Positions 22,800 to 52,500 of a stretch of 64,000 nucleotides of DNA are shown piece by piece. Location: positions 9,300,001 through 9,364,000 of the forward strand of contig OY754464.1 in the NCBI GenBank assembly GCA_963575645.1, in the 5' to 3' direction. The notes beneath the pieces are model-generated. The model saw only the letters and a list, made by a program, of their open reading frames with translations. It was not told where the DNA came from and ran no database searches. Made by a program: the position numbers and the translations under genes. This DNA is from Xanthostigma xanthostigma (Eukaryota; Arthropoda; Insecta; Raphidioptera; Raphidiidae). Position 1 is the first letter of the stretch. Every line of letters begins with the position of its first letter.

Positions 22800-22990
22800 A
22801 ATTTTGAAGAGTGGCAAATTTTTTAAAATAAACGAAAAAAAATGTGTTGGCACATACGTGAAAGGGTTGCGTAGTTTTAGTATGACGTATTTGTGGGCTA
22901 TTTAATTAGTCATAGTAGTTGCTTGACAAATATCATACCCTACCCTAGAAATGCGTCATTGTAATATGTTGATATTGTTAATAATCAATA
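22800..22990. repeat. Repeat holding the paralogous empty site of the 48684 transposon
   Basis: In reverse complement it matches the sequence flanking the transposon at 48684-52273 (right flank 52274 to about 52400: GACGCATTTCTAGG...GATATTTGTCAA). At 22964-22967 there is one ATAT where the filled site has the insertion between two. Confidence 0.75.
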
Positions 22991-48054: not shown

Positions 48055-49053
48055 AAATAGACCTTAAAGGACTCTGGTTCGAACGCGAGGAGCGTACAAC
48101 TACCGCCGTGTACCTATCGTTTTTAAACGATATTTTTGCTGGACTGTTGCACAGTGCATTCTCTAAGTCAATTGTATAAATACAATGTACACAACAATAA
48201 CAACTACAGAGTGTCAACTTTTCATTAAAATATATGCACCATTATTACAGCATACATTCATTGTTATAGCTGGGATGAGCGATTATAAGGTACGTATTTG
48301 AGATTTGTATAAAAAACTGCTGAAAAAATACTTCAAAAACAAATGTTGAATATGCTTTTTTGATTTTACAATAAGTAGAGACACCTAAAATAGTTCAATG
48401 GACTCATCCTAGATATTACCATTCCAACCCATAAGTGGGGAATGGTATCTACTAGTTTAGGTCCCCCGAATCCAAAAAACATATTTTTGAAAAATCTCTG
48501 TGCGTCTGTTAGTCTGTCTGTTTGTCTGTGAACACGCGGATACAGGTCAAACGGTTGAGCGGATTGAAACCAAAGGAAGGTCCCATGTGATTTTAATAGT
48601 GCAAATAAATATAGGTACTCGCATGGATATATTCGACTTCTTTTTTAATTAATATAATAATCTACAAAACAGTAACAACATATCGTCCCCCTAATATTAC
48701 AAGGTTGTATGTAACATTTTTGAGAATTTTCAGTTTTAAGTATTACAAGGTTCTATGGGACAAGTACTATATTTTGATGTTAGAATGGACTCGCTAGCTC
48801 ACATAGAACCATCATACCATAAGAAAAATCAAAGATGTATGTCATAAAAGGCGGATGTTCGGTACGTCAAGGTTGTATGTTAAACATAGTACTCCGTGAT
48901 ACAAGACTTTTCAATAAAAGTAAATGTAACATAGTCCTATGTTACAACATGATATCACAGTGTATATTTTGAGGTTATGTTATCAATGTGTTATATCAGT
49001 TTGACCTAAGTTCGTGTTTGTGCCCGACAGTGTTAGATTAAGTTAATCAAGTT

Positions 49054-51608
49054 ATGGATGATAGTTATATTAGTGATGGCTATGACTATGACTCGGATAA
49101 AGACAAGGAATATATTCCAGATATACAACATGAAATATCAAATAGGAAAGGAACGAGGTACAAATACAATATGACACATTAGTTAGGTTAGGTTTCACGG
49201 GGCTATAACGCATTTTACTTTTTATTTTAGATTAAAAATTCGCGGCAGGTGGTTTGACCTTGCGATATCAGATAGCGACAGTGACATTAATTCTAATGTG
49301 GTTTCAAAAACTCATTGCTACAATGATTCAAGGTATTTATTCATCATGCTTTTTCTGTAGTTTGTTGCACACTTTTTGATGGATACAGTAAATTATAATA
49401 TTGTGTATGTACTCTCTTTCTTCTAGGGACGAGCCTGGCTGTTCCACAAATAAAAACTCTAAAAGCGACAGATATTTTCCTAAATCAGCTAAAGATATTG
49501 CAAATACTAGTACTGCAATAATTGGTGAGAATTATACGTTCTCACCAGAGTCTTTTTCCAAAAAAGGTGCTACGGTAAACATTCCGGCACCTATAATTGA
49601 TTATGATACACAGATTGAGAAATTTACTTCCAGCTATTCAGAAGAGCCCCTACTCCTAGATGCTCTCCCTGAACGTGTTATGGAAAATTCCGAACGTCCT
49701 ACAGAAAATAAAACTCAGGTATTTTAACTATTCAATATGCATATTATGTAAAATATGTAGAAATGAAGCTTGCTTTCCAATCTCAAGACTTTTAAATACC
49801 ATAAAATTATGAACACGGCGATTTTATCATTATAATTCCATATTTGTTTTTTTGCCTTTTGCGAGTTGCATGACTTTTTTCAAGATAATAATTTAAATAC
49901 AATGATATAATATTTTATGCAGGATGGGAATACTCACAGCCATTCTGCAGAAGAGGTTCATAACAATACGAAGAAGAAGCTAACACGAAAACGAAAGATA
50001 AATGTTTCCGAGTGGGCGTGTAACGTTAGAAAATCAAAATTCGATCAAGGCCTTGAATACATTTCTTCGAGGAAAAAAGTTGTGCCAGCTAAAGAAATAC
50101 AGAATAAGAAAGATTGTGTACAAAAATGCTTGTTCAAATGCTCGCGAAAAATAAGCGACGAGCAAAGAAAAGAAATTTTTCAAAATTATTACAAGCTCTC
50201 TGCCAAAGAAAAAAAAAATTATATCTTGAATACAACTGAAGTAGATATCCCTAGAAGAAGAAGAAAGGAAAAAAACGAAAATAATTCGAAAAAAGGCAAA
50301 AGTTTCAAATATTATTTTAAATTAAATGAGGATAAAGTGCAAGTTTGCAAACTTTTTTACACTGGAACGTTATCTATCAGCCAAAAGCCAATTTACACCG
50401 TTCATAAACATAAAACCGTTACTAATACATTACCCCAAAGCAAGCAAGGAAAACATCAAAAACGTGTGACAAAACAAGAAGATGTTGATTTCGTAAAAGA
50501 ACATATTAATTTATTCCCACGAGTGGAATCCCATTATTGTCGCAAAAAAAGCAATAAAGAGTATATTGATGGTGACCTGACAACTAAAAGAATGTATGAA
50601 ATGTATTTGGAATATGCAGAAGAAAAAGAAAAAACTCCAGTTACATTTTGTATGTACAGAAAGATATTTTGTGGACATTTCAATATAGCTTTCCATAAAC
50701 CTCGCAAAGATAGATGCGACCAGTGTGAAGAAATGAAATTGAAGAAAGAAGAAAATAAAGTAGATGAACAGTTGGAAAATGCATTCAAAAATCATCTAAG
50801 AGAAAAAGAATATATGAGAGAAGAAAAACAAAAAGATAAGGAAAGTGGAAAACCAATCTTGTGTTTCGATCTAGAAAACGTACTTACATGTCCAAAGGCA
50901 GACATAAAAAACTTTTTTTACAAAAGCAAATTAAACGTCTATAACATGACTGGTCACCTCTCGATCGGAAAAAGGGTTTACTGTGCTGTTTGGACTGAGG
51001 CTTTGCACGGTAGAACGGGGAACGACATTGCTAGTGCAGTCTATAAGATACTACAAAAAGTACTAGAAGAACATCCCGAGTTTGAAGAAATAATATTGTG
51101 GAGCGATAGCTGCGTTCCTCAGAACAGGAACAGTCTGATGAGTTATGCACTCACGCATATCATTCAAAGCAGCAATAACCTGAAAAATATCACAATGAAG
51201 TTTTCCGTTCCAGGGCACTCGTGCATTCAAGAGGTAGATGCAATTCATAGCTCAATAGAAAGGTCACTGAGCAAACTTGAGTACTTTTCACCAGTTTCAC
51301 TTATCCGAGCCCTAATAAAAGTAAATAGGTTTAACCCTTATAAAGTAATTCAAATGCAGAAGCAAGACTTCATAGATTTTCAATCATACTCTGCACAACT
51401 AAATTACAATACTGTACCATTCTCCAAAGTCGTTTGCTTACAGTTTTCAAGATGCTTTTCTGAGCTTAAATATAAAGTTTCATTCCAACCCACGGAATCT
51501 GTATTTAATACAGCCAATTTGCACTTACGTAGACTTCGGAGGAATGTCGCAACTACAGCCACGTCCAAGCAACCTGACATATTTCCTTTAGAGCTAAAAA
51601 AAAAATGA
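49054..51608 (+). CDS. Transposase of the 48684 element (4 exons)
   Basis: Exons 49054-49157, 49231-49332, 49427-49718 and 49923-51608; all introns are GT/AG and all phases agree, giving 727 residues. The start MDDSYISDGYDYDSDKDKEY is acidic, then a Lys/Arg-rich stretch (KKKLTRKRK). A Cys cluster follows (CVQKCLFKCSRKISDEQRKE), then FPRVESHYCRK, a second Cys pair (KPRKDRCDQCEEMK) and a coiled Lys/Glu segment. The catalytic core has FDLEN (D at spliced residue 482), WSDSCVPQNRN (D561) and QEVDAIHSSIE (D605), consistent with an RNase H-fold DDD/E enzyme. The frame ends at TGA in an A10 tract, while codons past it continue to look coding; see findings. Confidence 0.85.
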
Positions 51609-51720
51609 TATCGATATTGCACTCCCTCAAACAAAAATCGACGCTATAAGATCCATGTTCCGATGGATGCCTGAGATGGATAAGACGTACTTTGAGACCG
51701 TTTTACGCAAAAAAAAGTAG
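51609..51720 (+). pseudogene. Displaced C-terminal segment of the transposase
   Basis: One base out of frame with the upstream ORF, this segment reads DIDIALPQTKIDAIRSMFRW then MPEMDKTYFETVLRKKK and a TAG at 51718-51720. That has the composition of a genuine transposase tail. The shift is at the A-run 51596-51605. Confidence 0.7.
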
Positions 51721-52273
51721 TAGGGCGTAATTAGGAATCATTTTCAAGAAGATGATTATCTTGGATAATTAATTAAGACATTTTCAGGTACATATTAATT
51801 TATTTAATTGAAAATAAATTCTATCACGGATTTTCTTCGAATTTTTTTTAAGTTATTGTTAAGAATGTCTTAAATCATGACAAATTTTGTTGCACTACTA
51901 AAATAATTCAATATATTATGTGTTAATTAGATTATCTTTTCCATTTAAATATTGCATAGGAATATTTTTTGATGTTTTAAGTAATGTAAGTATTGTTGTT
52001 TTGAAGTTCTATGTAACTTTATTTTCTTTTTAATAAACCTTATGATTATCAAAGTTCTATGTTTTTTTTTAAATAAAATATTTTCCGGGATATTGTTTAT
52101 TATTTGATCAACTTTTCGCTAAATCATATTAATACTTAACCAAATAACTTATTTGTTCAATAAAAGAGTTGAAAATGGCAATATGAACAATTTTTAGGGA
52201 GGTCATTTTTTTAAAGGCGTTTTTCTCAGAAACACGTCGTTGTCACTTACAACCTTGTAATATTAGGGGGACG

Positions 52274-52500
52274 ATATTGCAATGACGCATTTCTAGGTTA
52301 GAGTATGATATTTGTCAACCAACAAAAGCTACCCATAAATAGGTCATACAAACATTGTATACGCAACCCTATATCATATACTTATTATGTGTGCCCAAAA
52401 TTGGACGGTTTTTTAAATTGTTTTTTTCTCCGCATTCAAAATTGGAAAAATGTATCATTTATCGTGAATGAATTCTCATTAATTTTATTTCACCACTTTC
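52274..52500. repeat. Right part of the repeat into which the transposon inserted
   Basis: In reverse complement it matches 22800-22963 (GACGCATTTCTAGG, GATATTTGTCAA, ACGCAACCCT). Confidence 0.65.

Follow-up and report, generated by a model that had tools for sequence, protein, structure and literature searches.

Described superfamilies and the place of the element

TnsB of Tn7 generates target duplications of 5 bp and Mos1 duplicates TA, both unlike the 4 bp of the element analysed here, and Ginger elements are equipped with a retroviral-type integrase core (rve). Sola2 is among the closest described systems. In a published description, Sola2 duplications are 4-bp, A/T-rich and of the form AWWT (ATAT, AAAT, ATTT), and the ends are short, with 12-21 nt in case of the amoebozoan elements (PMC3627910). 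In Repbase, Sola1-3 are subgroups of one superfamily (PMC4455052), and piggyBac is characterised by TTAA (PMC5199201).

The window, i.e., the whole 64,000-nt stretch of Xanthostigma xanthostigma DNA that was analysed, contains a 3590-bp element that resembles Sola2 in its terminal inverted repeats and in its 4-bp, A/T-rich duplication, but differs in the length of its ends (26-33 nt vs 12-21 nt of amoebozoan Sola2 in PMC3627910) and in the sequence of the duplications, as AWWT is strictly present in 10 of 20 (hand count). With piggyBac it shares the duplication length, but TTAA was found in none of the 20 duplications. TnsB of Tn7 and Mos1 are among the best fold matches of the predicted protein model, but TM-scores are low and the protein has no sequence match in the PDB. 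Relatives of the element exceed the Pfam cut-off for DUF7869, a family that Pfam lists without a function, but the exon-4 product of the window copy has no match to it at E<=1.

From the length and character of the duplication, compared with the description of Sola2, the best reading is a Sola2-like element. Taken as a whole, we assign a probability of roughly 0.8 to an autonomous cut-and-paste DNA transposon with a transposase of the DUF7869 family, most likely of Sola2 type, that was very recently active.

Membership in piggyBac was rejected due to the absence of TTAA from the 20 sites and of a DDE_Tnp_1_7 match in the Pfam search with the window's exon-4 product at E<=1. In the same search no rve match was obtained at E<=1, and membership in Ginger was rejected.

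Ends, target site and copies of the element

The following features were assigned to the element and its target (strand in brackets where applicable).

48684..52273 (+): full-length DNA transposon, 3590 bp, based on paired ends, 4-bp duplication and five other full-length copies
48680..48683: left target-site duplication, ATAT, from the flank sequence
52274..52277: right target-site duplication, ATAT, from the flank sequence
48684..48716 (+): left terminal inverted repeat, 33 nt with 2 mismatches, 26 nt identical
52241..52273 (-): right terminal inverted repeat
48701..48879 (+): left end and subterminal repeats, motif AAGGTTSTATG at 48701, 48747, 48802 (reverse), 48831 and 48869
52003..52256 (+): right end and subterminal repeats, motif AAGGTTSTATG at 52003, 52051 and 52246 (reverse)
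48629..48679: left portion of the target, an abundant interspersed repeat split by the element, as far as matched
52278..52417: right portion of the split repeat, as far as matched
22918..22967 (-): uninterrupted paralogue of the target repeat within the window

The terminal arms of 33 nt are 94% complementary and identical over the outer 26 nt, and the element length, the 26-bp identical ends and the ATAT on each side given in a preliminary description of this DNA were all recovered. That description had called the element nearly complete, which is too modest: it is full length, with a one-base length difference in an A-run near 51596 as the visible defect. The motif AAGGTTSTATG matches 11 times in the element (<=2 mismatches) compared to 2.9 times on average in 30 mononucleotide shuffles, an excess that is partly circular because the motif was derived from the element itself. 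Eight of the 11 matches are situated outside the exons, and the subterminal repeats are possible transposase-binding sites.

The paralogue within the window had been put forward as proof of both ends. For the right end this holds, since the right flank matches it with 92% over 50 nt (22967-22918). For the left end the support is thin: the left flank alone has no match to the paralogue at E<=1e-4, and the joined flanks align to it with 136 of 195 identities (70%) and 21 gaps. Both ends and the 4-bp duplication are nevertheless correct, as shown by the genome search with the joined flanks (one ATAT removed) and by five further copies with duplications of their own. Among the 40 scored matches of this search, out of 688 first-look candidates, 39 are target repeats without the element, with 81-90% identity and the junction spanned in 39 of 39, and therefore the empty state is usual for this repeat. 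The repeat that hosts the insertion (48629-48679 and 52274-52417, with the paralogue at 22918-22967) is thus abundant and interspersed, with the 688 first-look candidates mentioned.

In the genome of 623 Mb (28 contigs), six full-length copies were detected, located on contig C1 at 9.35 Mb (the window copy) and 62.74 Mb and on contig C10 at 10.77, 13.37, 14.78 and 15.45 Mb. Their flanks are distinct and their sites unrelated, and each copy has its own perfect 4-bp duplication (ATAT in three cases, ACTT, AAAT and AGTG). The five further copies with the same ends are what the preliminary description had proposed to search for, and no duplication of another length, which it had named as grounds for refutation, occurs among the six. 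Allowing <=2 mismatches, a 21-nt end motif matches genome-wide exclusively at the twelve ends of the six copies, so that no short derivatives were seen at this threshold; the reversed control motif has no match in the genome.

Between copies, 0-5 substitutions were counted over about 3.59 kb, and four copies are mutually free of substitutions. The family of the window element is young and was probably mobile very recently. Five length differences occur among the copies, three of them in long A or T runs, and these three may be assembly errors. The difference near 51596, by which the window copy deviates in length by one base from the other five and which shifts the frame before the C-terminus, could be a homopolymer error of the assembly. 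The copy with the most substitutions (C10, 13.37 Mb) is embedded in a long inverted repeat of other DNA with arms of at least 60 nt.

Transposase gene and catalytic core

The predicted gene model comprises four exons.

49054..49157 (+): exon 1, start codon at 49054, predicted GT-AG model with boundaries equal in six copies
49231..49332 (+): exon 2, predicted GT-AG model
49427..49718 (+): exon 3, predicted GT-AG model
49923..51608 (+): exon 4 with conserved Cys/His clusters and DDD RNase H-like core, predicted; end as in the frame of the window copy

This GT-AG model is open in four of six copies, encoding 764 aa in three and 769 aa in the fourth. The window copy, with a predicted product of 727 aa, closes early after the A-run difference, its exon-4 frame ending at 51608 and thus about 40 codons short of the frame in the four other copies, and the copy at C10 13.37 Mb contains an early stop.

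In the exon-4 product, D320, D399, D443, H436, H446, C269, C272 and H295 are invariant in 30 of 30 aligned family members, and C69, C73, C77 and C146 are kept in 28-29 of them. Of the 30 members, 27 retain E441 and 28 retain E450, which makes D443 the best third acid, while E450 could take this role instead, judged from the alignment. The distant relatives L067, L070, L071 and L073 carry substitutions near the third acid (P or T in place of E441; D or V in place of E450) and are useful for separating D443 from E450.

A predicted structure model (pLDDT 85.1, pTM 0.65) shows the strand and helix order of the RNase H fold, with D320 at a strand end, D399 just past another strand and D443 within the helix that follows the next one. 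This placement of the acids is expected of RNase H-like transposases. According to the model, three invariant acids (D320/D399/D443) are thus carried by an RNase H-like core, the feature by which DDE/D transposases are recognised. With Foldseek against the PDB, a single chain was retrieved at E<=0.001, namely chain M of 9bw1, the TnsABCD transpososome of Tn7 (E 9.8e-4). TnsB (7pik) and Mos1 (4u7b) come next, mixed with chains of MutS, Piwi and NurA close behind, and the transposase matches have low TM-scores of 0.13-0.31. A sequence search of the PDB returned no match, neither for the window's exon-4 product nor for the 30-row profile. The fold search against viral structures gave two matches at E<=0.001 and nothing informative, the better one being a fragment of a mismatch-repair ATPase (E 8.7e-5) and the other unnamed. 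Three stretches of viral contigs fit a pattern in the comparison with the profile, none of which was confirmed as a relative.

Concerning DUF7869 (PF25273), the family named in the preliminary description, the assignment is supported by way of relatives. In Pfam scans, neither the window's exon-4 product nor its exon-3 frame, scanned separately, has any match at E<=1, and the exon-4 product of another copy (L011) has no DUF7869 match at this threshold. Three of eight relatives, L029 (41% identical to the window family), L023 (45%) and L020 (47%), exceed the Pfam cut-off, and 7 of 14 family members match at E<=1. In L023 the match spans 436-605, i.e., most of the catalytic core. Other Pfam matches of the 14 members belong to four families, of which the best has an E of 0.015 and none is a transposase by name. 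Genome-wide, at least 150 matches exceed the DUF7869 cut-off (scored among 363 candidates), and DUF7869 is not mentioned in the literature searched.

Wider family and target preference

With the exon-4 product as genome query, all 77 scored places match at E<=1e-5; as these are the best 77 of 656 candidate places, the family comprises at least 77 matches. Ends were sought at 30 loci (the six copies and 24 relatives), and 22 of these have paired ends beginning with CG, flanked in 21 of 22 by an exact 4-bp duplication. Within the DNA covered, no paired CG ends were found at L018, L026-L030, L037 and L038. In case of L023 the duplication is imperfect (three of four bases agree), and L020 and L021 have common flanks owing to a segmental duplication in the C10 region. 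Without L023 and L021, 20 independent target sites remain. These sites are palindromic around the duplication, with a pattern of roughly AAC-ANNT-GTT: 71 half-positions are matched in the 20 sites, whereas 5000 control draws, taken from the window and from two samples of C10, average 44.8 and do not exceed 69. Within the duplication, A is first in 18 of 20 sites and T is last in 18 of 20.

The six copies, the empty target repeats, the related families and the RNase H-like core of the model account for the assignment as DDE transposon with a 4-bp duplication, as already stated in the preliminary description. The likeness to Sola that it had inferred agrees, in length and A/T character of the duplication, with Sola2 as described in PMC3627910. 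It is unlikely, though to be taken seriously, that this cut-and-paste DDE transposon belongs to another or unnamed superfamily and has just the duplication length in common with Sola2: the ends of 26-33 nt exceed the 12-21 nt given for amoebozoan Sola2 in that paper, and half of the duplications (10/20) deviate from strict AWWT, but the 4-bp A/T-rich duplication and the DDD core fit Sola2. In Pfam, the window's exon-4 product is without a match at E<=1 and, besides DUF7869, the 14 members match four families, none a transposase by name, at E 0.015 or worse.

Segmental duplication is present in the same C10 region (L020/L021), but as an explanation for the spread of the six copies it is ruled out by their different flanks and own duplications along with their exact end-to-end match. 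Between three families compared, pS is saturated (0.87-0.91) and pN amounts to 0.25-0.33; therefore purifying selection acted on the protein, and together with the long open frame this would suit a host gene domesticated from a transposase, which is ruled out by the flanks, the intact ends and duplications and the six near-identical, dispersed copies.

For the preferred reading, a Sola2-type cut-and-paste transposon, the following course is proposed. The four-exon message would be translated into the 764-aa transposase, which would bind the ends of 33 nt as well as the AAGGTTSTATG repeats next to them and cut the element out by means of an RNase H-like active site, formed in the exon-4 product by D320, D399 and D443. 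For insertion, a short palindromic target similar to AAC-ANNT-GTT would be cut with a stagger of 4 bp, and gap filling at the stagger would result in the 4-bp duplication.

A transposon-rich, strand-polarised region on C10

A region of C10 at about 8.6-16.4 Mb, 7.8 Mb long and equal to 1.25% of the genome, contains four of the six copies together with most of the relatives found on this contig. Under uniform insertion, the chance of finding four of six copies there is about 4e-7 (by hand, post hoc). When hits to DUF7869, piggyBac, hAT and reverse transcriptase were merged, at least 263 places were obtained on C10, of which at least 240 fall within the 7.8 Mb, the limits of the region having been set after the hits were seen. 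Since the superfamily searches scored the best candidates alone, these counts are lower bounds; other contigs have at least 340 hits. A C10 preference peculiar to the window family was rejected, as piggyBac and MULE hits are concentrated there as well. DDE_3 hits lack such a concentration (11 of 95 in the region), and 7 of 150 LTR-integrase hits are in the region.

Of 154 pairs of adjacent hits from different superfamilies on C10, 137 share their strand, compared to 77 on average and at most 101 in 20,000 shuffles, although these pairs are partly non-independent because some neighbours are segmental duplicates; strand runs number 28 compared to 120 expected. On the other contigs, 26 of 48 such pairs are on the same strand (a few entries left out). 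From the three nearest hits of other superfamilies, the strand was predicted correctly for 103 of 117 DUF7869, 62 of 63 piggyBac, 41 of 43 hAT and 13 of 17 reverse transcriptase hits. The four C10 copies of the window family likewise have the strand of their three nearest other-superfamily hits; in case of the copy at 10.77 Mb, the fourth and fifth nearest hits are opposite. Of the superfamilies searched later, MULE agrees with the strand map in 27 of 31 hits, with four misses near a sign change, and DDE_3 in 8 of 11, without reaching significance (P 0.11). Retroelement polarity in C10 is less clear than that of the other superfamilies, with the 13 of 17 reverse transcriptase hits given above and agreement, by eye, in six of the seven LTR-integrase hits of the region. 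An 8-kb sample from a minus block contains three frames of at least 110 aa, all on plus and one of them integrase-like; of five frames in a plus-block sample, four are on plus and the fifth overlaps one of these (both by eye).

At 13.06-13.10 and 13.81-13.86 Mb, with an offset near 760 kb, three superfamilies have hits of the same scores, probably due to a segmental duplication inside the C10 region. Smaller gatherings of transposon genes were observed on C11 at 7.6-9.3 and 11.4-11.9 Mb and on C13 at 17.0-18.2 Mb, which possibly are further regions of the C10 kind. At C11 11.46-11.90 Mb, five of five listed hits are on minus.

Transposons are mostly antisense in uni-stranded piRNA clusters of the flamenco type (PMC13172572), and flamenco measures hundreds of kb (PMC10495008). 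In the uni-strand clusters of Trichoplusia, antisense accounts for 57.1% of insertions and 79.7% of transposon nucleotides (PMC5844692), and piRNA clusters of Rhodnius, which can exceed 700 kb, lack polarisation (PMC11614815). The C10 region resembles uni-strand clusters in that its transposons predominantly have one orientation over long stretches. As a cluster, it would be larger (7.8 Mb) than the sizes cited for flamenco and Rhodnius and more polarised than the clusters of Rhodnius or Trichoplusia. A literature search by titles and beginnings of abstracts retrieved no megabase-scale or polarised piRNA cluster, which is not proof of absence in print. Thus it is tempting to speculate that C10 at about 8.6-16.4 Mb would be an array of giant uni-strand piRNA clusters in which four of the six young copies have already been caught, a proposal based on strand and position of the hits to which we give even odds. 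The alternating blocks could also be one long polarised array cut by scaffolding flips.

Significance

The finding is confirmed and stronger than first claimed. Its larger interest is given by the likely function of DUF7869 and by the place of the element in the C10 region. For DUF7869, so far a domain of unknown function, a likely role as catalytic core of a transposase emerges, in elements that moved recently, have defined ends and 4-bp duplications and prefer palindromic targets. The substitution-free copies, four in number and with an open gene model, make the family well suited to a transposition assay and to structural studies of a little-studied superfamily. If the C10 reading is true, the capture of an invading transposon by piRNA clusters would be visible as it happens, and the young element would provide a test of such capture.
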